Positions 2,594 to 61,181 of a DNA stretch of 64,000 bases are shown here, in pieces. A program made the translations under genes and the position numbers. The DNA is from a virus. Each line of letters opens with the position of its first letter. The first letter of the stretch is position 1. Below the pieces are notes generated by a model. The model saw only the letters and a program-made list of their open reading frames with translations. It did not search any database and had not been told where the DNA came from. Location of the stretch: IMG/VR virus record IMGVR_UViG_3300030685_000003, positions 1 through 64,000 of that record; one strand, 5' to 3'.

Positions 2594-3313
2594 CTATCAT
2601 GTAAATATTTGACTTCTTATACTATTGACTACATATTTTTCTATATCATTGTATGTAGCACATTTATCTACATTATCCCATAGACCTTCTATTTTCTCTC
2701 ATTTAAATTTATGATATTTTAATAAACTTTCTGTAAAACTTATTTTAGCTTCTTTATCTGGATTATTAAGCTCATGTACTATATCAAATCTTCTCATAAC
2801 CGCAGGATCTAATTTGGTCCCCATATTAGTAGCACCAATAAGTATTACATCACTTGACAAATTATCCAATCATATAATAAACTGATTGGTTACTCTATCA
2901 TTCTCAGTTGTTGCCGATTGATCATTAGATCAATTTCTCTTAAGGCAGAACGTATCGAGCTCATCGAAGAAAATGACGCATCTACCAGAGATTCACTTAA
3001 AGATTGCCTCTATGTTGTTTGAACTTAATCACATCTTTGCTGTAATGATAGATCAAGTACGAACAATATAGGTGGGTATTCATAGTTTAAATCATATGTG
3101 TTTAGCTATTGTAGTCTTCCCATTTCATGGAGCTCATATAAATAGCAGTTTATTGCGTATTCATATATTATGTTTTTTTAACTTAGCTTGGTGTGCAATA
3201 TCTAGATTGAGTTGGTCAATAAGCTCATTAGACTTTTCATCCAAAAATATATGGTTATCTTTTCATGAACTTTCATAAAGTAACTCTTGTAATTGCTGAG
3301 ATAAGAAGAACAT
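2594..3313 (-). CDS. AAA+ ATPase
   Basis: 239 residues. Walker A GAPGNGKTT (about residue 60), Walker B VIFFDELD (about 113-120), sensor-1 GATN, and arginine finger MRRFD follow in the canonical AAA+ order. Two of the three Walker A glycines are written TGA, so the motif exists only under the Gly code. The fold resembles FtsH/spastin-type or small phage AAA proteins. It probably remodels a protein or nucleoprotein partner; the partner is unknown. The DUF2828 and Ter genes lie further upstream in the same leftward block. Confidence 0.85.
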
Positions 3314-3340
3314 AGTGATATATACAATATAAAGAATTTG

Positions 3341-3408
3341 GCAGGTAGACAGGACTTGCACCTATATGGCCTCGCAATGGGCATGTTACTAATTACACCA
3401 CTACCTGC
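3341..3408 (-). tRNA. tRNA-like gene, anticodon tentatively TGC
   Basis: 68 nt. Perfect 8 bp terminal stem (GCAGGTAG/CTACCTGC), a 4 bp D-arm, and a T-arm with 7 nt loop TGCAAGT. The best anticodon arm gives loop ATTGCGA, i.e. anticodon TGC, but with one stem mismatch and almost no variable loop. A better tRNA-Ala(TGC) lies at 6776-6848, so identity here is doubtful. May be decayed or an unusual compact tRNA. Confidence 0.5.
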
Positions 3409-3416
3409 ATATTATA

Positions 3417-3470
3417 ATCCACCAACAGAGGATATACCAATATTGCCATAAAGATAGCTTATTGGTGGAT
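3417..3470 (-). other. hairpin between two tRNA genes
   Basis: A 9 bp inverted repeat ATCCACCAA/TTGGTGGAT flanks about 36 nt between the two tRNA-like genes. It could be a processing stem or a small RNA. No terminator T-run follows. Confidence 0.3.
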
Positions 3471-3474
3471 ATTT

Positions 3475-3599
3475 TGGATAGGGGGAGATTCGAACTCCCG
3501 AGCCACCGCAGGGAAGCGGTCGCATATCTCATATAGTCTTATCTCGAGATTATTATCTATACCCCTTTTACTAGCTCTGCCTCCTGAGCTTTCCTATCC
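3475..3599 (-). tRNA. tRNA-like gene with ~50 nt insertion after the D-arm
   Basis: 125 nt. Perfect 7 bp acceptor (GGATAGG/CCTATCC), D-arm with AGCT/AGCT stem, and a perfect T-arm GGGAG-TTCGAAT-CTCCC. Between D-arm and T-arm are about 50 extra nt containing a palindrome ATCTCGAGAT inside a TATAG/CTATA stem, then a hairpin ACCGC-TTCCCT-GCGGT. That last hairpin is either an anticodon arm (TCC/CCC) with a 6 nt loop or a class II variable arm. Identity unresolved; the discriminator is A. The extra segment looks like an intron or expanded arm. Confidence 0.55.
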
Positions 3600-6330: not shown

Positions 6331-6336
6331 ACAATC

Positions 6337-6418
6337 GGAAGATCAAGGATTTGAACCTTGGAGACCTTTCAGTCTTACCGATTAGCAATCGGCTGCATTA
6401 CCGCTCTGCCAATCTTCC
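6337..6418 (-). tRNA. tRNA-Ser(GCT)
   Basis: 82 nt with acceptor GGAAGAT/ATCTTCC, anticodon loop TTGCTAA (anticodon GCT) on a CCGA/TCGG-type stem, a long class II variable arm, and T-arm with loop TTCAAAT. All serine hallmarks are visible. Confidence 0.9.
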
Positions 6419-6547
6419 TTATAGGTAATCTTTAGTAAATTTTTTGAGCCATTGTCTGAATGCTTTCTTAAACGAGATGTGCTTGATCTCTTTCTTAGAT
6501 AACCATCAGACTCACATACTTTTGATCTTTCTCGTAATCTTCATCAT
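6419..6547 (-). CDS. small basic protein, 42 aa
   Basis: MMKITRKIKSMGVGWLSKK continues to a Lys/Arg-rich amphipathic C-terminus (FRQWLKKFTKDYL). It stops exactly at the tRNA-Ser 5' end. Two glycines are TGA. Could be a nucleic-acid-binding or membrane-active peptide; coding is supported by composition and fit between two tRNAs. Confidence 0.45.
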
Positions 6548-6610
6548 ACAATGGTTAAGAATAAACATTGAAAACAGTCCCTCTGTGGCAGATGAAACCA
6601 GACAAATGAC

Positions 6611-6691
6611 TGGGTTAGATAGGATTCGAACCTACAAGCCGGTAAAGGACTCCGTCTACAGCGGAGCGGACCACCATTGCCCAACTAACCC
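6611..6691 (-). tRNA. tRNA-Tyr(GTA)
   Basis: 81 nt. Acceptor GGGTTAG/CTAACCC, 5 bp anticodon stem CTCCG/CGGAG with loop CTGTAGA (anticodon GTA), long variable arm as usual in bacterial tRNA-Tyr, T-loop TTCGAAT. Confidence 0.92.
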
Positions 6692-6695
6692 ATGG

Positions 6696-6766
6696 AGCGA
6701 TATATGGGACTTCAACCCATGATGCCTGGTTGGAAGCCAGACGTGTTAGCGCTACACTAATACCGC
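6696..6766 (-). tRNA. tRNA-Gly(TCC)
   Basis: Acceptor GCGGTAT/ATATCGC with one G-U pair, anticodon loop CTTCCAA on a TCTGG/CCAGG stem, T-loop TTGAAGT, discriminator U as in bacterial tRNA-Gly. Serves ordinary GGA/GGG codons. Confidence 0.92.
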
Positions 6767-6775
6767 ATATTATCT

Positions 6776-6848
6776 TGGAGAATGAGGGAATCGAACCCTC
6801 TCCTTCTCGGTGCAAGCGAGATGTGCTAGCCATTGCCACTAACCCCCC
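6776..6848 (-). tRNA. tRNA-Ala(TGC)
   Basis: Anticodon loop CTTGCAC on a TCTCG/CGAGA stem. The acceptor GGGGGGT/ATTCTCC includes a G3-U70 wobble, the alanine identity element. T-arm GAGGG-TTCGATT-CCCTC and D-arm are canonical. Confidence 0.92.
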
Positions 6849-6852
6849 ATAT

Positions 6853-6926
6853 CGCATCCCCTAGGATTCGAACCTAGAACCCACGACTTAACAGGCCGTT
6901 GCTCTAACCATTAAAGCTAGGGATGC
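6853..6926 (-). tRNA. tRNA-Asn(GTT)
   Basis: Acceptor GCATCCC/GGGATGC, anticodon stem ACGGC/GTCGT with loop CTGTTAA, T-arm CTAGG-TTCGAAT-CCTAG, discriminator G. Fully canonical. Confidence 0.93.
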
Positions 6927-6928
6927 AT

Positions 6929-6993
6929 AGTCACAGGCGAGGATCGAACTCGCGTACGCGGATTTGAAGTCCACACCACTGACCAACTGTGAT
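6929..6993 (-). tRNA. UGA-decoding tRNA (anticodon UCA), probably tRNA-Gly
   Basis: Anticodon stem GTGGA/TCCGC (5 bp) with loop CTTCAAA gives anticodon TCA, which reads UGA. T-arm GCGAG-TTCGATC-CTCGC is perfect, and discriminator U fits bacterial glycine tRNA. Between acceptor and anticodon stem only about 12 nt remain, with no evident D-stem, and position 1-72 is an A-C mismatch, leaving 6 acceptor pairs. Given GroEL evidence that UGA is Gly, this most likely inserts glycine. A tRNA-Sec is excluded by the short arms. Confidence 0.8.
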
Positions 6994-7006
6994 ACTGCGA
7001 CATACT

Positions 7007-7077
7007 CATACTATCTAGGAATCGGACCTAGTCCTAGGACTTTGGAGATCCCTGTGCTACCAGTACACCAATAGTAT
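7007..7077 (-). tRNA. tRNA-Trp(CCA)
   Basis: Acceptor ATACTAT/ATAGTAT, anticodon stem GGGAT/GTCCT with loop CTCCAAA (anticodon CCA), T-loop TCCGATT, discriminator G. Its CCA anticodon shows Trp is read only from UGG, which supports UGA being Gly. Confidence 0.92.
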
Positions 7078-7082
7078 ATAAT

Positions 7083-7153
7083 CTCAGAGCCGAAGAATCG
7101 AACTTCTGTCCCCTGCTTCAAAGGCAGGTGTCATGCCACTAGACCATCTCTGA
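7083..7153 (-). tRNA. tRNA-Gln(TTG)
   Basis: Anticodon stem CCTGC/GCAGG with loop CTTTGAA (anticodon TTG), discriminator G, acceptor TCAGAG/CTCTGA plus a mismatch at 7-66, T-loop TTCGATT with an imperfect stem. First tRNA downstream of the DUF2828 gene. Confidence 0.85.
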
Positions 7154-7254
7154 ATATTGAGGTTTCGTGTACCTAACAGAAACCCCTAAAGAATAGCATA
7201 CAGCTTAGCCCACCGTATGAGAGACGTCGATAATCAACTAGACAGGGATAGCAT
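7154..7254 (-). other. intergenic spacer with hairpin
   Basis: Between the DUF2828 stop and tRNA-Gln is a strong hairpin, GGGGTTTC ... GAAACCTC, with a 12 nt loop (about 7158-7187). No T-run follows, so RNA processing or stability rather than simple termination is likely. Confidence 0.35.
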
Positions 7255-13409: not shown

Positions 13410-16051
13410 GATTTTTTAGATTTAAATTTCATATAGTTGATAGTCTGGTCAATCTCATCAATCAATCAAGATGTTCATGTCATTTTAGTCTCTAGTATTC
13501 TTCTTAAGTTTAGTAGAGATTGACGTGTCCCTTCTTCGCACTCATCAATATCTGATGGGATCCCAGAAGTATTTAAGAATGCCTTGAATATATACCATAG
13601 TTGTGGCTTCTCCTCTATATACTTGAAGTCTACGTAACACGCCTGTCAAGGTCTAGCCTTATCAAAATGTTCGTTGATTGTCTTGAATGTAGATATTATA
13701 TCCATTTTGAAAGCGTCTGAGAACCTAGACATATCAAGATTTATATCGACATAACAACCACCATTACAGAATTCTACCAAGCCCCTATGGACATTGAAGT
13801 GATTGAACAATACGATATATTTATTTGCGATATCGTCTGAATCATCTCTAGATAATTGATCGAACATAGCATCAACAAGATACCCTTCATAATCTCATAA
13901 TCACATTTTTCTAGCTATAGCTATAATGAATCAATAGCATTGTGATGTTCTATAGGTATCTCAATAATCTTTCCCAGAGGAATCAATCTTTATAACTAAT
14001 GCGTCCTGTACAGAAAGCCATTCATCAACTAATCAATTGATCCCTGTCTCGTCCTTAAATATTTCTAGGACATTTCCAAGAATATTCCCCGGTAGTTCCT
14101 TCATGGCTTCTAGTCATCATGCTAACATTTTTCTTTTAGCACAAACGAGACAGATATTTCTTGAGACGGCTGCGGCATCATGGAATTTTGTTTGTCCATC
14201 AAATATAAACTGTCAAGAGATTGGGATACTAACAGTACTTAGTGTCTGCGTTCCCTTCATAATATTCTGTCAGTCGAATGCTGTTCTTACTAGCGATGTT
14301 ACCGCAGCAGAATTTTTCAGGGCATCATTTCTAAATTCTTCTATACTGATAGGAACGCTATGTCTTAATGAGGATTCCAAAACAAATGGAGATGATGCGG
14401 CGGGGACACTGTAATGCATACCGAACATCTTATCTAGCAATAATCTTTTGATAGTTGTTTTACCTGAGGCTTTCATTCCTTCGATAAACATACCTGGGAT
14501 CTGTAGACGTCTGTCTCTAAAGAATTTTGAGTACACCAATCATATTCACATTAAGAATAGGGGATAGATAACCTTAGGCTCATATATTCTAAATAAGATA
14601 TTTACTATCTCATCTCGTGACATATTAGTTTTCCCTGGTTCGTCTATCTGATCTTTGTTGGAATCAACTGTCCCTACATCACAATACAATCCGTCCATTA
14701 TATACTTACCTCATGTCCTTACTAGGAATCTCTTCCCAAATATTTCTTGAAGTCATAGACTTTCAGTATGCTCATACTCAGTACTTGTATTAAGGATATA
14801 TTGTCTCAGCAATTTGATTCACTGAACATTGGTGATACAATCTACTCACTGTTCCATGATCATCTTACTAAATTCTCATGCAGCACTGAACGGCTTAAGT
14901 GTGACAATGTTAATACCTTTGTTACTATCAATCTTTACAATTATTTTGCTACCGTCTGAACCTCAATCCGGACGTTTATTTATCTTAAAGAATCCTATTG
15001 GCTCTACGATTCCTGCTACTAATTTCTCTACATTTTCTCAGTTCTTCCCGTTAGAGATGAGGACCATTTCTTTTCTTACCTTATCTACTCTGATCTGAGT
15101 AGATGCTCAGTATCCTATGATATATGTATCCTTGTCGATAATCTTGATATTGTTTGAGTCTGCATTGATTGTAGCTAGTCTGTCTTGATATTGCTTGATA
15201 GCCTCATCACATTTCAAATCATAGTTAGATTTGAACCAGTGGATCAAATCCGGAAGCGAAGATATATTGAGAGCTTGTTTGGCTATTGTGTAGGCATTAC
15301 CTCTAGGCTTATCCAAGGTAGTATCTGCTGTAAAACAGTTTACCGTGTTTCTAAACTTATGATAAGCATATCCATTTACTTCTCAAGTCTTCGTATGAAT
15401 TGATCAGTCTGGCAGAGTAGTGAACTTCCCTCATGATACTTTCTCTAATACATCACTGGCGTCGATAGACTCGATCTCTTCGAAGATCTGTTTGATGTCT
15501 GGCCATTGAATGTATTTTTCCTTATCTTTACCATACTTCCATAGGATCTCATCGTACCCTATAAACATAGAAGTAAGATCCGTAAGCGAGTATTGAGCAT
15601 CGAAAGTTTTGATAGATATTTCTTGATCTCCTGTATTGTCTGCCCAGTATTGAGTACTTGGCATAGGGAATCCAGTAGGTATGATCGCTCAGATCCTCTT
15701 GGCAATATTTGATGAAATCTTTTTGATCGCATCTTGATTTCCTACCTTGCTGTACTCCTTATCTAATTTAATAAAGATATATTTTCCCTTAGGTGAGGTT
15801 ATTATCATAGATGGAGCAAACAATCCCTCTCGAGTCTTATTGGCCCCGTCGATGAAAAAAGATAGTGTGTAAATACTATCTGAAACTATGCTAAAGAATA
15901 TATCTTTCTTTTTCGCTGGAGAGTTCTGTATTTCTATATCATCTATGAGGCATGGATCTTGCTTTCATTTAGCAACTCAAGCCTGCATAGAATAAATATT
16001 TGATCACGGAAACCCGTCCAAAAAAGATTTGATTTTATCTGCCTCAATCAT
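13391..16051 (-). CDS. replication ATPase (primase/helicase-like, P4/DUF927 type)
   Basis: 886 residues. N-terminal region (about 1-120) has SFFIDGANKTREGLF and might be a primase-polymerase-like domain. The central part has a P-loop GMKASGKTT (about residue 510) followed by VPISIEEFRND (Walker B with Glu), then a C-terminal region of about 300 residues. Layout fits phage/plasmid primase-helicases that unwind at the origin. Neighbours include SF2 helicase, SSB-like protein, RecT and nuclease. Exact family not certain. Many TGA glycines, including in the P-loop neighbourhood. Confidence 0.65.
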
Positions 16052-23539: not shown

Positions 23540-23779
23540 CTAATAATTTTCTTCGAGCCAGTCGAAATAAGCGTCAGCCATATCTCTTTTAACCTGAGGC
23601 CAGTCTATGCTATCATAGTAACTGTCTAGTTGTCAGCTATTTACTAGGTAAGCCCTAGCTGAGTTATCCTCTACATACTTCTCTAGATACATCGCTTGGT
23701 TCTCGTTCTCGAAATCCTCGGGAGACATATCCGGGCGAAATACAACTTTTTGTTTTCTCTTTGGTAGTGGTTCAGCCAT
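23540..23779 (-). CDS. hypothetical protein, 79 aa
   Basis: MAEPLPKRKQKVVFRPDMS; acidic C-terminal half rich in Tyr/Trp/Asp. ATG overlaps the preceding TAA. Unrecognised. Confidence 0.6.
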
Positions 23780-24600
23780 TAGTTCGGTTGGTTACTTGAA
23801 CTAAAATATGGATTTCTACACAATCATAGGCAATACCCAGCTGAGTATTGTACTCTGTGAGGTATGAATAAGTCAGCCCTATCAGGATTAGCTAGGCATA
23901 CCATATTGCTTACGATATATATTTTCCCTGGCTGTTCCTTAGGTAGTGTCGATGGTACCAATTGATTTTCATAGACAGGGATATCGTTTACATATCCTAT
24001 CAACATCTCATTCTCCGAGATCCTGATACGCCCGTGTGCTGGGATGCTATAACCACTAGCAAAGGAGACTACGTGTCAAGTTAGGTTAAATATCTGAGTT
24101 CACTCGTATGCTGGCACATCTTGGTTGATGTTGAAGAAATCTTCTTGTTGTTGCACTGGTTCGAGCTCTTGAATTGGTTCAGGCTCTGTCATCTTTGCTA
24201 GTGTATTTGTTCTAGATTCTTGCATCTCTAGCTTAGTTCTTCTCTTGCGTTTTGGCTTTACTTCTCAAGATTGTTCTAGCTTAATCTTCTTTGGTCTTCA
24301 TCTACCTCTCTTAATTGGCTGCTCTTCTTCCATATCTAATCAGACAATTACCTCTTTCTTTGGTCTCCCTCTTCATTTCTTGACGATTGGTTCAGTCACT
24401 TGTTCTGCGAACGGTTTACTGATTAGTTTGTTGTATTGAACTGGTACGAATGATGTTTCTCTAACTAGAATTGAGCCACCATTTTGTTCTATAACATAAT
24501 AATCAACTCATTTCATAGTATGAGTATAGGATATTATTTTACTTACTGTCCCGTTATTCATTTGGATGAGTAGCCCTGGGGCAAAATGCTTTTTTGTCAT
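23779..24600 (-). CDS. AT-hook DNA-binding protein
   Basis: 273 residues. Two AT-hook motifs, KGRGRPKK and RGRGRPKK (about 79-108), plus a KPKRKRR stretch; these bind the minor groove of AT-rich DNA. The N-terminal 70 residues are SH3-like beta (LIQMNNGTVSKIISY). The C-terminal 130 residues are globular. The first Gly of each hook is TGA. Possible nucleoid or transcription factor for an AT-rich genome. Confidence 0.75.
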
Positions 24601-29184: not shown

Positions 29185-29212
29185 ATTATATATAGAATGT
29201 GTTTTTTTGCAA
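29185..29212 (-). promoter_or_regulatory. promoter TTGCAA-16-TATAAT
   Basis: Leftward -35 TTGCAA, 16 bp spacer, consensus -10 TATAAT, inside the 3' end of the HNH gene. Probably drives the small genes below 28.8 kb. Confidence 0.65.
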
Positions 29213-29746
29213 GTCTTTGCGTGTATTTTGTGCAATACTTTGGTTATCAATGGGACTTGTACCTCTTTCTAGATTATGCTTTATTTTGTGGATAGCTGTA
29301 GAACTGACGCCGTAGGCTTTCCCTATCTCTCTTATAGTCATTCATATTGATAGGTCTTCTCTTATTTTTTCTAGTGTTTGGCTGTCAATCTTTTTTGCTT
29401 TCCTGTTTTTATTCGTTGCGTCTGTTTGGTTGTCTTGTGGTGTTCCTATAAATAGATTATCTTTGTTGTTGTTGTTTGGGTTGTCGTCTTTGTGGCAGAT
29501 GATAAAGAGTTTATTTTTAATATCATATCCAAGAAACGCTTGAGCCACTAACCTATGGGCTAGATATTTTCTTTCCCTGCTGTCATCCTTGAGAGAATAA
29601 ACAATATAATGTTTCCCGTCTTTGTTGGTCTTGCCTTTCCCTCCCTTAAGATTTTTATATTGTCAATTCTTAAATAATCTTTTACAGTTTCCCAAGTTGC
29701 TGATTTGATATAGTGGGTATGCTTCAATTGTTTTTCGTTCTTCCAT
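29186..29746 (-). CDS. HNH homing-type endonuclease with C-terminal HTH
   Basis: 186 residues. NUMOD4-like start (IEAYPLYQISNLGNCKRLF), HNH core LAHRLVAQAFLG and ICHKDDNPNNNNKDNLF, then a C-terminal helix-turn-helix (MTIREIGKAYGVSSTAIHKI). A free-standing homing endonuclease next to the switch region. First leftward gene. Confidence 0.85.
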
Positions 29747-29819
29747 AGTGTGGATATTTCAAATATAAATAGATGTTTAGTGTTTTATTGATTGCCTTGT
29801 TGTTTACTTGTATATTTAA

Positions 29820-29847
29820 AGTATAATCAATTTTTATTAAAAAGCAA
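29820..29847 (-). promoter_or_regulatory. promoter TTGCTT-16-TATACT
   Basis: Leftward -35 TTGCTT, 16 bp spacer, -10 TATACT, about 75 bp upstream of the HNH ATG. Likely the first leftward promoter. Confidence 0.55.
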
Positions 29848-29962
29848 ATCTTTTTTCGCGAAATTAAGACTATTATCATATAGCAAGTAAGCAGGTAAGA
29901 AGCGGGCTTGCTCTTGATATATTAAAGACAGCTTGACATTGTGCGTTTTGATAAAGAAACCG

Positions 29963-30110
29963 TACTACATAGTAGTATAGTATATGAATTATATATAGTA
30001 TATATTTTATTTTTTATTTTATTATATACGATGTATATTTTGTGATGTAAATAAATATAGATCAAATATATATACTATATGTATCTCATATACTATACTA
30101 CTATGTAGTA
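29963..30110. repeat. 25 bp perfect inverted repeat around AT-rich core (origin-like)
   Basis: 29963-29987 and 30086-30110 are exact reverse complements (TACTACATAGTAGTATAGTA plus TATGA). The 98 bp between is almost pure A/T with further inverted similarity. Position between divergent gene blocks fits a replication origin or strong cruciform. Confidence 0.7.
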
Positions 30111-30134
30111 TACTTTGTTTATAATACGCAGTAA

Positions 30135-30203
30135 ATGTCAAGTGTTGTGTGTAGTGTGGTGATGATGTCAAGTGTTGTGTGTAGTATAGTATAGATGTCA
30201 AGG
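30135..30203. repeat. direct repeats with 30 bp period
   Basis: ATGTCAAGTGTTGTGTGTAG occurs at 30135 and 30165, and a third partial copy ATGTCAAGG at 30195. On the leftward strand each contains TTGACAT, a -35-like box. Iteron-like spacing. Confidence 0.65.
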
Positions 30204-30659
30204 ATACACTGGCTGTATATTCTCTCAGATCGTAGAGACTACCTGCTTTCTAAGGCAACCCTCCTGCCTGCCTGCTCTCTCTTCTCTACGTACACTATCC
30301 TCTGATACGCCAGATCCGACCTAAGCAAATGGGAGGGGGTAAGCCCCCAGAGGGCAGGGATATATATACTATCTCCTCCCGAACATTTTTCCAAAAAAAA
30401 GAGATTTTAGGTATACAAAAAATGTATATAGTATACAAAAAATGTATATAAATCTCTTGCAAAAAGATATGAACTGTATACACTGGTTGTATACAAGAGG
30501 TCCAAGCCCCCCCCTAACTCCAGGCACTAACTACAATTCCAAAGACATATACACTGAGTGTATACATCAACTCCATAAGTATACAAAAAATGTATACATA
30601 TACACTGGTTGTATATCCACTCATCAATAAACATCTTTTTATATACAAAAAATGTATAC
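30204..30659. promoter_or_regulatory. operator array: eight GTATAC-N7-GTATAC-type dyads
   Basis: Dyads at 30204-30218, 30411-30429, 30431-30449, 30476-30494, 30547-30565, 30579-30597, 30599-30615 and 30641-30659. Half-site is GTATAC or near it; spacers are of two kinds, AAAAAAT and ACTGGTT/ACTGAGT. One overlaps the -10 of the rightward promoter at 30457-30484 and another abuts the first rightward ATG. Also in this span: GC-richer 30240-30360 with hairpin GGGGG-TAAG-CCCCC. Confidence 0.75.
30457..30484 (+). promoter_or_regulatory. rightward promoter TTGCAA-16-TACACT
   Basis: -35 TTGCAA at 30457-30462, 16 bp spacer, weak -10 TACACT at 30479-30484. The -10 lies inside a GTATAC dyad, so a dimeric regulator could block it. 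Confidence 0.5.
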
Positions 30660-30660
30660 C

Positions 30661-31020
30661 ATGCCAAACAATAAAGATCTTAGAAATATTCTTATAGACG
30701 AAGCTGTGCCTGTGTGATCTAAGATTATGTTTAAGTGAGAGAAGAGATACTATACAGTTATGGCGAGTAACGCGTTTGTCTCTGTATGTACTAAACCATA
30801 TCCACAGAATGATACTGTTCGATATACGATTATAGACTGGACTGCTAAAATAAGAGGTCCTGAAGATCTTATATTTGGACTTGGTGCAGAAAATAGAGTG
30901 GAATGTGAAGATATGTTGCAAAGAGTTACTAGTGGTGAGTCTTATATATCTGAGAGACATTGTGTTCCATTAGATATAGAGAAATCTAAATTAGTGCGAA
31001 AACTTAAAAATTTTTTATAA
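30661..31020 (+). CDS. hypothetical protein, 119 aa, first rightward gene
   Basis: MPNNKDLRNILIDEAVPVG; mixed alpha/beta, basic C-terminus (KSKLVRKLKNFL). Starts 1 bp after the last GTATAC dyad, so it is directly controlled by the array and might encode its regulator, though no HTH is evident. Confidence 0.65.
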
Positions 31021-31035
31021 ATAATTGTGTACATT

Positions 31036-31515
31036 ATGAACGCGAAGGAATTTAGAGACAAGTTGGAAGCGGATGGATTTATGAATTTCCAGGAATATGC
31101 GCCGCAACCGAAAGTGAATATAAGAAGTTTGCCTCAGAATATTTATAAGATCGTGAAGAAGCTGGAGTCTACAGGGCTGTATGAATTTGATGGCTACTTT
31201 TTTATAAAAAAGTGAACAGATAACCACCTGAAACAAACAGAGACGAAAACAATAATAATTCCCAGCCAGGACCATGATGATTGTCATCAACAACCAAATA
31301 GTGTATTACAAGAAAACAATAGGATCCTGATGCAAATAAATGGCGAATTAGAATTGGACATAGCAGCTCTCAAAAAATATAAAGAGGATACAAAAAACAT
31401 TAAGTCCGAGTTAGATGACGCATTGTTTTGGAAGGCGGATACGGAGAAGAAGTATCAAGCTTCCTTAAACATAATCCAGATCCAGGAGGAACGCATCAAG
31501 GAACTGGAATGATAG
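31036..31515 (+). CDS. hypothetical protein, 159 aa
   Basis: MNAKEFRDKLEADGFMNFQ; globular first 55 residues, then a Gln/Thr linker and a long coiled coil (LELDIAALKKYKEDTKN to the end). Unrecognised. Confidence 0.6.
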
Positions 31516-52562: not shown

Positions 52563-55500
52563 ATGGGATTCTTCGATGTTATTAAAGGTGTTTGAAAATT
52601 TGTTTGAACTGCTTGAGGTATCCTATGAGGGGCAACTATTGCAAATGATCTAACTTCTGGTGAATTGTTCTCAGATAACTATGATAAACAATTGGCTGAC
52701 TATGAAGCACAACAAAAGAAAAATGATATGAAAGGTACAGACGATTTTCTTGCTTCTGTTTGAAAGCCTAAAGATCAGCTTAGCACAGATGAATTTTTGG
52801 CGCAATATGATACACCAAAATCTCTCATTGATAACTCTGGTCCTAACGCAAACCAACCAGCAGAGAACGATATAGGAAAACAACTTACTGACAAAGCTAA
52901 CTCTACTATATGAAAGATAGACTTTTTTTCTCAAAAAGCTAAAGATACTATGGATCCTATTGCACAGGCTTCTATGGATGCCGAAACAGCAAGATCAAAA
53001 TCTTTATATAACCAGATAACAGACAAAGCATATAATCTGAACGTCGATCCAACACTTAGAAATCAGTATGCAGCTTTGGCTAGATTCGCAGAAGAGCGTC
53101 TTCTAGATAGAGATGGTGGGCTTTATACGGCACAGACAACAAAATCACCAGAACAGCTCAAATACCAAAATGATATCCTAGAGAAATCTCTTAATGCATA
53201 TAATACAAATTTATCACAACTTACTCCTGAACAATTAAAAGATAGAACACAATTAAATGATGCCTTAGATAAAACTGATTCTCAAATTTGAGTTGATACG
53301 GTAGACTATTCTTGAGATTTGGGAAAGCAAAATGAAGCAGATATAGCAGAAGCAAAGGCTAACAATCAAACAAATCCATTCCTCAGGGCATATTATCATA
53401 TAACTTCTGGTTACGAAAATACAGTGAATGAAATAGAACAAAATGATCTTGATTCAGAATATGGAGCTAATCCTGCTACAATGATTTGAGATGTATTATG
53501 AGGGGCTTGAAAATCAGTATATAAAACAGCTACTGGATGAGATAATCTTGTTGATACGGCAGCTTCTTTTGTAGGTAATCTAACCGGAATCCTTGGTGGT
53601 ACGATGTGATACGTAGTTTGAGAAGGAAAGAATCTTCTCGCTAAGTCTGGTGTGGGTTCAGTAAGCGACGTAGTATCTCAGATAAGAAACAAGAGAGATG
53701 AGGTAGATACCTCTATGAATGGTGGTAGTACAGTAGGTCTTATTGCTAGAAAACTTGGTAGAACTATTCTATCTCATCCTGACGATATCGCTGAATTTGC
53801 AGGAGATCTGTTATTATGATGAGCTACCTGAGATGCCTTTGGTGCACTAACAAAAGTGCCAGTATTATCTGATGCACTTGCATCGTCCGGTAGAATTTGA
53901 GATGTTGCTATGAAATGATTGTCTGAACTAGCAAATGGTATGGTAATAAATTCATACTTCAATACTATGGCGGGTCAGGAATTTGGTGGTAAATGGGCAT
54001 TGATGGACACGGCTCCTGATGTATTGATGGGTGGTTTACAGGGGCTAAAATGAGAGGCTGCGAACATAAAATCTATTAAAAATTCTATTGGGTCATTTAA
54101 GGATCAATATACTGAAGCCGTTAAATCTAATAATGGTGACGCTCTTAAGGCACTCAAAGATCTCGAACCAGTATATAAAAATTCTTTTGGTTTCAATGCT
54201 GATAACTTTGATAAAATTGTATCTAATGCTGAGGCTTCAGACGCGAAATTGCCAGATATGAATTCTCTTTATGAATCGACATCTAATAGATTTATAAAGG
54301 ATAAGGCATCAAACATAAGTGTTGAGGAGCAAAAGACTCAAGCATGGAAGGCAGCACAGGCAGATACTTTAAGAAAAATGCCAATTGAAGATGCTAAGAA
54401 AGCTATGCAAGAGATATATGGGATAAATATTGATTTTGCAGATAAAGCAGCCAAGGCCGAAGCTGCTGAAAATATTGTAAAAGGCACATCAAATACCGCT
54501 CTTCAGGATAGGTATGTTTCTCTCGTTCAATGACAACCTGATGTAATATCAAAAATACAGTCCGCATCTCATCCAGATGAGCTATCTCAAATAATTTGGG
54601 ACAATATGGGTGGTAAGTCAGTTGCTGAATTCTATGGAGCTAAGGCTAAAATAAATGTCATTCAGGACTCGTTTAATACGTTGTATAAAGACATAATAAG
54701 TTGAGATTCTGTTGCTTCTAACAAAGCTACATCGGCTTTGCAAAAAGATTTTGCACAACATGGATTGATTGACACAACAAAAGCAACATTGACTGATAGG
54801 GGATGAATATGAGCTGACATCGTGAAGCTAAATTTTTATAAACAAGCGAAAGATTTTGTACTTTCTAATCTACAATCTAATAAATTGGATGGTGTCTCCT
54901 CTGAAAATATAGGTAAGGTTAAAACAATGCTAGATGATGGTATCTCAAAATTACAAAAAACCATAGATGATTCTTGAAAACAATCTAAAGCTGAGTCAAT
55001 TATAGAAAAGCAGACTCCAAATAAAAAGCCTAGATCATTTGAAGAGGATATTCTTCCTAACGATTCTATAGAATTACCTTCTCTGGAGCTCTCTAATGTG
55101 GATGACAGTCTGTCTAATAAATTTGCCACTACTCAATGAGTGGATTGGTATCCTGAAGCACAGAAAGCTATAGTAAATAACGATACCGCTACCCTTAGAT
55201 CTCTTATCGAATCTAATATTATTGTATGAGATCCTTCAAAAATAGCAACTATGATTATAAATAACGACAATGTAGGTGTCCAAAATCATATTTCCGAGAA
55301 GATTTTTGAGGATACAGAGTTAGCTGCAGCGTTCCTTGGTAAGGTTGATTCCAGTGGACCAGAAGTTGCAGAAAAATTATCAAATTTAACAGATAGTATA
55401 AAGAGTATAAGTGATATATTGTCCATGAGAGAAAGTAATTTCTATGAATCTACCGATGCACTTAAGTCTATATCTAAACAAAAGGCCCAAAACATTATAA

Positions 55501-58500
55501 ACAATGTCTCATTACTTGATATGGGAATGCATCCACAAGATATGATGAACAATGATGAACTCTCCTCACTTATTGTAAAATATGGTAAACTTACTGATGA
55601 TATGGTAACAGATATGTCCGCTGTTTCTACAAAAACTAACATATATTTACAATGATGGTTTGGAATTTGAGGTAAGGTAAATCCTGTAATTAAGCCGCTT
55701 AGCGAAGTAGTGGGAGGATACAAGACATTCTTTTCTGAACTATCAAAGGTAAATATGTATCAGGGGAAAAGAGAGGTTATTGATCTTTCGGAAAAACTAA
55801 AGATTCTTACTGAGTCATCTTTTTCTGAAAAAAATATAGTAGATAGATGATATTCTATTGGTAAATCCCAAGGATTGAGTAATATAAACTCAACTTTCGT
55901 GAACATAATTACAAATTACGATGGTAATCAAAAGAATTTTCTAAAAGAGTTTGTCTCTATCTATGGAGATAAGGCATTTACTCCAGCAGAGCTTAACTCA
56001 TTCAAGGGTATGCTAAACATAACAGACTGATACAGAAGCCAATACAATCAACACCTTATTGACACTATTTTCAAGGATGGTGGTATTGATGTGGATAAAT
56101 TAGAAGCATTTGTTAAATTAGGTGGTTGGATGGGAAGTACAGACAACAAACTTTGAGTTGTGTTTGGGGGATTCTCTCTATCTAAGAGATATCTCTATGA
56201 ATGAAACAAAGAAGCATACTGGAATTCCTTCGAACAATCTCTAAAAGATTTTGAAAAATCTGGTGATTCTTCTCTCCAAAAGTTAGCTAAAGATTTCTAT
56301 TCTCAATATAAAGGTACTGGGGATTTTTTCTCAGATATGGCCGGAATGTATGATGAAATTAACGATGGGATAGAAGAAACATACTTCAAATCTTATAGGG
56401 ATTCTCTAAATGATATGGATATACAACACCTTTCTGCGGAAATAAATACAAATTTCCCTGGGTACAAGGAAGAATTGGCTGATTTGGTTGGTAAGGGAGA
56501 CGCACAAGGGGTTATCTCTGCATTGAATTGAATTATTGATGATACTAAGGAAAATATATCTAGTAGATTCCTATTAAACCCATACGAATATATGATAAGT
56601 TCTTGAAATAAAGAGAATGTTCTAGCAAATATTATGAATTCATTCTTTACTACTGATGAAAAATTCGGTAAATTTCAAGATACTTTGTGAGTAGAAAGAG
56701 GCCAAAAATCTATGAATGTATTTGGAGATATGTCCTGGAGATCTAAGATTTTGGCTGATGAATATGTTAATAAAAAGTTATTTGATACTTTTAAGAGACA
56801 ATCTGTTGATCTCTGAGGGGATTGAGTTATATTAGTGTCTAATATTGATGAATTGAAAGATAGATTAAAGGATATGTTTACTTATGGGACATCTAATGAA
56901 TCTAAAATGGAGAGAAATTCCATATGAGGTGTTTCTAATACCACAGATATGTCAGCTGGTAAGCTAACAGATGACTATACTCAGAAGCTATTTGATGAAC
57001 ATTCGCAAGTTCTATGAGATGTCGGGGATTCTATACTTCATGATGATCAGAGTGATGTAGATGTATTAAGGACCGTTACAAATAACATAGTAGCCAATAC
57101 TCTTTCTAGAGAAGGTAACGATATTATAGATAAAATGTTCAAAGAAACGTTGTCTAACCTGCCTGATGATGAATATAAGGCATCTAGAAAACTTATCGCA
57201 GATAGTTATGGTCAAATGGTACAAACGTTTGATGACAATTTGTCATTATATGCTCGTGATAGTAAGATGGGTAAGATAGAAAAACAATCTCTATCTGATT
57301 ATCTAATAGGCACTGACGGTAAATGAGGTATTTTCTGAGGAGCTGTTGATAAATTGAAAGATAAGCAATATCAATCCCAATTTTATGGTCAGCTTATAGA
57401 AACATATGATAAAAACACAGAGCAATTCTCTATTGTTATGGGTGAATGAGGTAAATTTGATAGCGCTTTGGTAAAATGGTTCTATCCTATTTATAGAGCA
57501 CTCCAAAATACAGAAGATGGGCAAGAATTATTCAGAAAAATCAACAATCTAAATACTAGGGCTATGGGTACAGATATGTACCTAGATATGAATAAGATAA
57601 GAGCATTCCAAGCACTAGGTGTTTGATCCGTAGAATGAAATATGTTTACAATTGGTAAAAATACCTTCGAAATTGGTTCAAATATCAAGGCAAGTGCTAT
57701 GAATAGTTTATATTCAGAAGTATTAGATAGATTGAACAATGGCGAGGTTATCGGTCAGTTTTCTCTTCTGAAAAAAAACTTCAGTGCCTCAGAAATGCAT
57801 ACTATAAATACCATGGTAAAGTCTATGTATGATAAATACGCTTGAGACGCAGCTATGTTTGTACCAGTATTTAATAAAGAAAACAAATTAGAGTTCGCAT
57901 CTGAGTTTATATACTCATTTTGGAAAGATTTTTATGATGGATTAAAGAAGAACAATGCCTATAGATCAGAAATAGGATACAATAAACTAACTGCAGATTA
58001 TCCTAAGTATATAAAGGAAAATGTAGAACAACAATTCTTCAACTCCCTATCTTCTGAGGGGAAAACAAATATGACAAGATACGGTTTGAATGTGAAAGGA
58101 CCAACAACTCCTATGTGAATGGAGACTCAAATGAATGACATCTTAAATAGAGTAGGATTTGGTACTGAATCCTCTAGAGCTGTAGAAGGTTTCCTATATA
58201 AGGGATATAAAAACTATGGAGGTATGATGAAAACACTTCAATGATTGAGAGCTGGTATGTATACTATGCTGTTCAATGCAATGCAAGTTCCAAAATTAGC
58301 TCAACAAGCGGTAACTCAGGAACTTAAGTTTGGTGGACTTAAGACCGTTGTATGAGGTCTTAAGGATTTCGATAGATGATATCTAAACTACATAACTAAG
58401 AGTATTGATTACGAAACGTCTTTCTTCGACAAAATCTCCGATAGTGTAGACAGTGCTATAGACGCATTTGAAACTACCCCTGTAACAGATCTTATGAAGA

Positions 58501-61181
58501 AGGGGCTTAAATACTCCTTGAATGCTATGGAATTGTCTGATAAGTTGACTCTAAATAGAGTCAAACAGGCTGCTATTATAGGCTCTGCTCAAAATCTTGG
58601 ACTATCTCCAGAGGTATTCAAGGAATATGGTGTAACTAGAAATGTTCTTGCTGGGCTTCTTGATGGGTTATCTAAGAATACTGATGAAAATTTCAGATCT
58701 GTATTGGATCCTATTATAGAAAAAGCAAATAATTGATGGAGAATAAATGACAAGGATATCAGATCTCTTAATGAATTCATAGAAATCAATTCATCATCTC
58801 TTCATCCAGATGATTTGAATGGATTATTGCAAACAAAAGGGATCTTAGAATCAGACTATAACAATATTATTGATTTCCAAAATAACGTCAAATTCCTTGC
58901 TGACTGATATATGTCTTCTTTCTACCATGCTGGTAATAGGGACATGACTATAAATGCAGCTGGTATGCATATGTGGTCTGAGTTTGCACTCCCGTTATTT
59001 AACTGGGCAACTAAAGAATTATCGACCAATCTCGGTGATTTTGCTATGGAATTCTCAAATCTTACTGCAAAATACGGTACTACATCGGAAATGCTTAAAT
59101 CAAAAGACTTCTATTCTGAATTGATGTCTATGCCTGCATTCCTAAATTTGGCTGCACAAATAGCTCAATTTGGGATATATTACAGAAATGTTAATAAGTT
59201 AGTGTATGCTAACTCTGAGAATGATGAGATTAACTTTGGTGCGGCAATGGCTGGGTTTGTTGGTCCATTCGCGGCAGCATCTCAAATATTATCTCCAGTA
59301 TCTAAAGCAGAAAAAACATATGAGATTCAGAAAGACTTATGAGTATCTACATACGATGCTATTATAAGTTCTGCACAACAAATGGGTAAAGATTTCGGAA
59401 ACTTATTCTTGAAGGATGCTGGTATGATATATGACATGGCTTGAGAAATATGAGTTACCGCATCCGATCTTAGCTCAAAATGATTTGACGGTCAATATAG
59501 TATGCTTTCTGACGTTCTATTGCCTATAATATTAAACAAGGCTAAATGATCAATCGTTAAAGGTACTATGAATGTTTACAGAGGGTATGAAACCGATACA
59601 AAGTGATATGATATTGGTCAAGCATTAAATCTTGCTCTCTATGGTAACTTCACTCAGAATTGATTGGAGAACCAAAAGTCTATAGATCAGTTATTTGTGC
59701 TTAAGCAATTAGACAAAACTGCTTCAGCTGGTATATTCGAGACATCTTCTTCTGCTTCATTTATGCCTAATCTAGGTATTGAGAATAAAGTGTTTCAAAA
59801 GACTATGTGAGATACGGGAATTGATGACTTGTTGACAGCTACTGGTGACTATGGTAAAATACTTGATGGCGTTACTGGTGGTGAAGGGGTTGATAAAGAT
59901 GGTAATCCTAATTATAAAGCTGGTACTCTCTTCAAAAATATGGTTGACACATTGAAATGAGAGTGAGTAAAGGGTAATGCCGGTTTGAAACAAATGTCTG
60001 ATGAGGAAATAAAATCACAAGAAACAGACGTTTTGAATAAAATCACTGATGGTGGTAAACTTGATCTGTTATCTAATGCAGATGACATCAAGAGTAGAGT
60101 ACTTACTTACAGAGGTAGATTCTCAGCATCATTTGCTTATGGAGTATTGTTGGATGCCACAGCTAAAAAATATGCAAAAGATCTAACAGCTGGAGATAAA
60201 AAGTCGGCTACTGCAACGCTTAAAGGTATGTTTGGGAAAAGCGTCTATTCTAAATCGTTAGAGAAGAAAGATATAGATACTCAAATGGCAGCTATAACTG
60301 ATGAATTTGCTAAAAAATATTACTGAAGTGCCGTTGCTTATAATAAGCAAGTAGGTATAAATGCAACTATGCTAGCTGCAAAAGTCAACTGATACGATGT
60401 GGCTAGTCAATGAGGATTGAATGCCGTGGTTTCTACAGAACTATTTAGTAGAGCTATGAAGCAAAACGGTAATAATTATGTAGATGGTATGAATAAGGTT
60501 GGTAATTACTTCTGAGTACTTATGAAAACCTATTCTAAAGAAATTGATTCTATGGTAAAAAAAGATCCTACAAAATTTGTATCTTGGATGAATACAACTA
60601 CTAAGATGATAGATCTATCTAGCAAGAGTGATATGGAGAAAACCTATATCAAGTGAGGTATGTTGAATGCTATATGAGATAATGTGGCTAAAGTTATGGA
60701 GTCTTCTCCAGATCTTGCTGCAAAATATAAGGATGTGTGAGCATTGGTTGCTTGGAATATGCTAGATAACTCAAACAGACTTACAAAAGATGCTGCAATA
60801 AAAGCTACGTATGATGACTTCTGATTGACAGTAAAAGCTGGTAAATGAGCATCACCTAAAGTAAAGTGAGTATCTGCACAATCATTACGTGATACAGCTC
60901 TTAAAATATTAAACATAACCAATACACCTTACAAATTTATATCTTCACAAATATCTAATGGTTGATCAGTCAGTAAAATCCAGTGAGTTGCCTTTGGTAC
61001 AACCTGAAATTATAACATTAAATGACCTTCCTTGAAATGATTGACAACACAGGGATTGACAACAAAATGATTATCCTCAGATAATATCAAATTGAAATCA
61101 GGAAGAGTCACATCCACTAAAATCGTATGAGTGACAAAACCCAAAGCAACTAAGTCGTACAAGAAAACTCTTAGAGGATAA
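52563..61181 (+). CDS. giant internal virion / ejection protein, 2,872 aa
   Basis: One uninterrupted frame across 8.6 kb when TGA is Gly; all partial standard-code fragments lie in the same frame. Starts MGFFDVIKGVGKFVGTAGG (glycine-zipper-like helix). Another membrane-prone stretch follows near residues 345-365 (FVGNLTGILGGTMGYVVG), then a very long helical body, and a Lys/Gly/Thr-rich tail. Size and position after capsid/tail genes recall giant ejection proteins (T7 gp16 is 1,318). I saw no lysozyme motif. Confidence 0.8.

Follow-up and report, generated by a model that had tools for sequence, protein, structure and literature searches.

Clustered Dyads in Phage Control Regions

Temperate phages with a CI/Cro switch of the lambda type have immunity regions with multiple operators, and in lambdoid repressors the spacer of the operator sets affinity via DNA shape. 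Clusters of dyads are also the layout of parS sites and centromere arrays. Clustered operator-like dyads in a phage control region are a known general kind of element, found here in a little-known type of phage, as an array of eight dyads in one non-coding gap. In sites and layout only, this array resembles the lambda-type switch, as both place a set of like dyads between divergent genes; it differs in that no XRE (HTH_3) repressor, integrase or resolvase was found in the phage. Among phages for which no binder is reported, the Cluster O mycobacteriophages have 17-bp dyads in more than 30 copies, found genome-wide and extending into genes (PMC4351075). The two cases share short dyads with perfect arms in many copies; the more than 30 copies of Cluster O are dispersed, whereas the eight copies here are confined to one gap (PMC4351075).

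The Phage and Its Genetic Code

The DNA analyzed, hereafter the window, comprises bases 1-64,000 of the 70,155-bp IMG/VR virus record IMGVR_UViG_3300030685_000003. The record has a 124-bp terminal direct repeat, compatible with a complete genome, and encodes the phage hallmarks terminase and portal; it is a tailed phage that reads UGA as glycine. With the standard code, the longest open frame of the window has 460 codons; when UGA instead counts as a sense codon, a frame of 2876 codons appears and 37 frames in the window have at least 200 codons. Glycine is preferred over tryptophan because GroEL scored higher with the former (476.9 versus 451.3 bits). A cluster of eight tRNA genes (6336-7154) includes one with the anticodon UCA (6929-7001), which likely reads UGA. 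This is genetic code 25, that of Gracilibacteria/Absconditabacteria, and the code suggests that the host belongs to these bacteria. Putative phages sharing code 25 have already been described, and the phages of UGA=glycine bacteria are known mainly through metagenomes, according to a paper on their genetic codes (PMC10746230).

Regarding its relatives, none was found by IMG/VR scans with the major capsid protein (MCP), TerL, the portal and a 159-aa protein encoded near the array as queries, nor with 23 bases taken from the inverted repeat described below. TerL had no match in INPHARED. Matches to the portal came from 10 phages, with identities of 20-25%, and those to the helicase from 836 phage records, the latter result being uninformative on the array.

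Some features of the window are recorded here as separate observations. A Shine-Dalgarno (SD)-like motif precedes 3 of the 73 genes examined; instead, a stretch rich in T, between about -25 and -14, precedes the starts. A leftward protein (23779-24600) has two GRGRPKK motifs that are AT-hook-like by eye, and a 2872-aa protein of the structural block (52563-61181) matches nothing in PHROGs and has no significant counterpart among PDB sequences.

The Dyad Array

The dyads are 19 bp long with the consensus RTATACA-N5-TGTATAY, and eight of them lie within 30202-30659 at no more than two mismatches to GTATACANNNNNTGTATAC; scored against this sequence, two are exact copies, four differ from it at one position and two at two positions. 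Their arms are conserved over 7 bp (GTATACA/TGTATAC), and their spacers fall into two classes with four members each: AAAAA (class A) and CTGRN (class C, namely CTGGC, CTGGT, CTGAG and CTGGT). Dyad 1 (30202-30220, GGATACACTGGCTGTATAT) is of class C with two mismatches and stands apart from the others. Dyads 2 (30411-30429) and 3 (30431-30449) have the same sequence, GTATACAAAAAATGTATAT, of class A with one mismatch, and their centers are 20 bp apart. The class C dyads 4 (30476-30494, GTATACACTGGTTGTATAC, perfect) and 5 (30547-30565, ATATACACTGAGTGTATAC, one mismatch) follow, and the latter has the same core as dyads found at padR genes of Saccharibacteria. Dyad 6 (30579-30597, GTATACAAAAAATGTATAC) is a perfect class A site abutted by dyad 7 (30598-30616, ATATACACTGGTTGTATAT), of class C with two mismatches; finally, dyad 8 (30641-30659, ATATACAAAAAATGTATAC), of class A with one mismatch, ends one base short of the ATG at 30661. 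The distances between centers are 209, 20, 45, 71, 32, 19 and 43 bp, not strictly in helical phase, and the spacers have the same orientation in all eight dyads.

The array is genuine, as confirmed by its statistics. Among 1000 dinucleotide shuffles of 30200-30659, the mean number of sites was 0.004 and the maximum 1, against the eight observed. All seven copies of the strict core TATACA-N5-TGTATA present in the window lie within 30412-30642, and the whole 70,155-bp record has no site with two or fewer mismatches outside the array; at three or fewer mismatches, the record has 17 forward matches versus 7 for a reversed-pattern control.

The preliminary description of this DNA had reported eight dyads between the two gene blocks, and both number and place were right, except that the first starts at 30202 and not 30204. 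It had defined the element as GTATAC-N7-GTATAC; the 19-bp length stands, the conserved arms are corrected to 7 bp, and the looser pattern itself, at three or fewer mismatches, has 55 matches in the window versus 29.7 expected. The two spacer types were borne out, but not their alternation, given that the classes follow one another as C A A C C A C A. That the motif could be equally frequent elsewhere in the genome, a result that would have spoken against the array, is excluded for this record by the confinement of the sites.

The Gap and Its Flanking Genes

The array occupies part of a 0.9-kb non-coding gap (29747-30660) that separates a leftward from a rightward gene block. The predicted gene list used this left/right strand split as a rule, so it is not independent evidence of divergence. 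Of the 12 longest UGA-read-through frames, the four left of the gap are all leftward and the eight right of it are all rightward. The leftward block is devoted to DNA metabolism (helicase, SSB, RecT and an AAA protein), and its first gene, on the minus strand at 29186-29746, encodes a homing-type HNH endonuclease that has NUMOD4 and, at its C-terminus, a weak helix-turn-helix (HTH) match. The rightward block leads on to the structural genes. Its first gene (30661-31020, plus strand) has no family match at E ≤0.01, and an alternative in-frame ATG at 30652 falls within dyad 8. The second rightward gene (31036-31515, plus strand) encodes the 159-aa protein mentioned above.

The dyads are probably the operator array of one dimeric HTH regulator, most likely a winged-helix protein, of the rightward block. 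The confinement of eight sites to the gap, far above the number in shuffles, and the divergence of the flanking genes argue for this assignment. The shared spacer orientation, not needed by a symmetric dimer, argues against it, together with center distances that are not strictly in helical phase and the lack of a promoter excess near the dyads: scanning 29600-30900 gave 4 promoter-like sites versus 7.9 expected, none overlapping a dyad, a result that is weak evidence either way. The -10 box that the preliminary description had placed under one of the dyads is thus not supported. As for the mechanism, each dyad would bind one dimer, with the half-sites about one helical turn apart, and several dimers on the cluster from 30411 to the ATG at 30661 would cover the DNA where the rightward block starts. 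Their occupancy would hold this block down or turn it on, steeply or in a graded manner, with repression appearing more likely than activation; the regulator would control transcription of the rightward block and perhaps of the leftward one as well. Plausibly, the two spacer types correspond to two affinity classes, as previously suggested from the letters of the sequence, and they would tune affinity through DNA shape.

The main rival to the operator array is a replication origin, because a long inverted repeat and a set of 30-bp repeats adjoin the dyads. The inverted repeat (29932-30142) is A+T-rich, with arms alike at 77 of 95 columns; each arm starts with CTTGACAT and both contain TACTACATAGTAGTATAGTATATGA. 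Three copies of CTTGACAT on the minus strand (30135-30202) start at 30-bp intervals, at 30135, 30165 and 30195, and the last one touches dyad 1. In a phage origin located in the gap, the dyads and the 30-bp repeats would act as iterons and the inverted repeat, a possible origin element, would serve for unwinding or as a cruciform. The sign of the AT skew also flips at the gap, but this flip coincides with the switch of the coding strand, and the minimum of the cumulative GC skew is nearer 26 kb; in addition, the dyad spacing is irregular, and no initiator gene was recognized beside the array when 68 of the 102 predicted proteins were scanned with Pfam. On balance, an origin is rather unlikely.

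The shared orientation and the position of the last dyad also bear on a role of the dyads in RNA. A rightward leader would contain seven to eight hairpins with a 7-bp stem and a 5-base loop (AAAAA or CUGGU), recognized by an antiterminator or a translational regulator; alternatively, the hairpins would be promoters for a phage RNA polymerase. This explanation would account for the loop orientation, constant in 8 of 8 dyads, and for a last hairpin that abuts the start codon, in a genome where SD-like motifs are as rare as reported above. It is nevertheless very improbable, considering that two of the eight hairpins would have an A-C mismatch at the terminal pair of the rightward RNA and that the 2872-aa protein matches no phage RNA polymerase in PHROGs or among PDB sequences. 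Pfam RNA_pol had no match in the record, but its control was likewise without any match, which makes this result uninformative. Two related candidates were rejected: that the 2872-aa protein is a giant virion RNA polymerase gained no support from PHROGs, PDB sequences or known motifs, and a structured leader RNA at 30221-30410 had a z of -1.24, not clearly better than shuffles.

Candidate Binding Proteins in the Phage

The preliminary description had proposed a search for an HTH- or ParB-like gene, and this gave little. The PadR family (PF03551) and HTH_3 (XRE) had no match in the record at E 10, the HTH_3 control being positive in 14 of 14 cases. Pfam scans, which covered 68 of the 102 predicted proteins, showed an HTH solely in the HNH endonuclease. 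ParB_N was not found in the record, and neither were a tyrosine integrase or a resolvase; from the latter result, a lysis-lysogeny switch in particular is without support.

These negatives bear on the proposal that a plasmid-like prophage uses the dyads as its partition (centromere) site. The layout of clustered dyads is indeed similar to that of parS and centromeres, but the ParB_N domain was not found in the record, and neither was an integrase or resolvase; this explanation is the least credible of those considered. The earlier suggestion of either a multi-operator switch or a partition/iteron site is thus best retained in its first half, supported by the density, confinement and layout of the dyads and by similar dyads beside winged-helix regulator genes in other genomes. 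Of its second half, partition is not supported, for want of a ParB_N domain, and iterons correspond to the origin discussed above.

For the operator array, the best candidate binder in the phage near the array would be the product of 31036-31515, although the chance that it binds the dyads is rather low. By eye, one stretch of it resembles a recognition helix with its wing and precedes a long helix, so that it may be a winged-helix protein with a long C-terminal helix; its model, built without an alignment, is of low confidence (mean pLDDT 58.6) and places helices at residues 34-44 and 89-158 and strands at 49-51 and 54-56. The libraries searched did not support this assignment, and the protein was absent from the best 12 matches of the PadR profile search.

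Dyad Arrays in Other Phages

A parallel to the array, by analogy, comes from the L037 phage, in which nine dyads with two or fewer mismatches lie within about 360 bp upstream of terS. On the far side of this array from terS is a small coiled-coil/winged-helix-like gene (13812-14219). The two arrays have in common a nearly identical dyad core in multiple copies and a non-coding gap with a regulator-like gene at its side. However, L037 is an unrelated phage that uses the standard code, its spacers occur in both orientations, its array is beside packaging genes, and the profile of its winged-helix protein does not match the 31036-31515 product.

TerL relatives of L037 amount to 10 loci, L037 included, and a family of small winged-helix genes is present in five of the seven loci read: L037, L179 (2416-2712), L181 (450-761), L182 (two copies, 1905-2174 and 3250-3531) and L185 (3241-3528); the short sequences available upstream in L177 and L183 do not contain it. 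These coiled-coil/winged-helix genes are divergent from terS, and dyad arrays adjoin them in some members: in L182, five to six dyads remain in drifted form, and in L185 a different dyad occurs three times. Dyads of the L037 type were found in none of seven further TerL loci, although L177, L178, L183 and L184 have little upstream sequence. The L182 protein was modeled as a helix plus a winged helix (mean pLDDT 88.2), and its best matches among solved folds were mostly winged-helix regulators, none below an E of 0.001.

Other viral matches were less informative. Single dyads, found in at least 119 loci, were set aside as mostly due to chance: two strict-core dyads within 600 bp occurred in 1 of the 118 loci other than L037. 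Separately, the phage contig L125 has six TATACA-N5-TGTATA dyads (1-390) that recur in a 22/43-bp rhythm and are followed by a gene block of early type; L125 and L123 have other TATACA/TGTATA arrays, and no regulator was identified in them.

Similar Dyads in Cellular Genomes

A stricter pattern, two strict TATACA-N5-TGTATA dyads 1-31 bp apart, matched 8 stretches in IMG/VR and 43 in GTDB species genomes; the low number in IMG/VR indicates that it is not a common low-complexity artifact. In 11 of the 43 cellular loci, a PadR-like gene starts at the paired dyads. Two of these 11 are from Saccharibacteria, with TATACACTGAGTGTATA and, at a distance of 43 bp, a near copy of it; in both, PadR was confirmed with Pfam (E 8.6e-14 and 8.9e-13). 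Within these two genomes, the CTG/CCG-type dyad occurs at padR only. No PadR was found in 118 of the viral single-dyad loci, a control that is not strictly comparable with the cellular loci because viruses seldom carry padR.

The array shares its dyad core with the paired dyads at PadR genes of Saccharibacteria, a Chloroflexi MAG and Actinobacteria. At the Saccharibacteria padR genes, the spacer is also the same or nearly the same as in the phage, and the 43-bp spacing of the padR pairs recurs between dyads 7 and 8. Conversely, the phage has eight dyads where PadR genes have two or three, and no padR gene was found in it.

It is possible that the binder is encoded by the host, and one version of this idea has a PadR-type regulator of the host bind the dyads, so that the phage would sense the host state through a borrowed operator. 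The absence of PadR among the phage matches fits such a scheme, as does the CTGAG core, identical to one at a Saccharibacteria padR, while the CTGGG and CCGAG cores there are one or two spacer bases off those of the phage. Still, among 379 genomes of the Saccharibacteria phylum, the CTG-type dyad turned up in 1, the query genome itself; furthermore, a short palindrome may arise independently. A borrowed PadR operator is accordingly judged improbable.

Turning back to the operator array in general, the dyad type does not determine which protein family binds it, since in 32 of the 43 paired-dyad loci no PadR-like gene was found, and three of these (L155, L157 and L170) have an XRE-like ORF, judged by eye, near the dyads. 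The dyad type is thus compatible with HTH regulators without naming one. Its distribution suggests that one dyad type recurs beside PadR and other winged-helix genes, in cellular genomes as well as in a phage family unrelated to this one. A broader proposal is that dense TATACA-N5-TGTATA arrays are the mark of a recurrent control module distinct from CI/Cro, a switch of divergent genes composed of a small winged-helix/coiled-coil regulator and six to nine operators, in unrelated phages such as this one and the L037 family; on the loci compared, it is a tentative idea and rather unlikely to hold.

Significance

A limited literature search found no described switch for Absconditabacteria phages, from which no claim of absence is made. 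If the recurrent module were real, this array would be the first candidate transcription switch in phages of Gracilibacteria/Absconditabacteria. In conclusion, if the dyads are an operator cluster, they would provide a phage that reads UGA as glycine with a defined and testable control site, and they would serve as a bait for its regulator.
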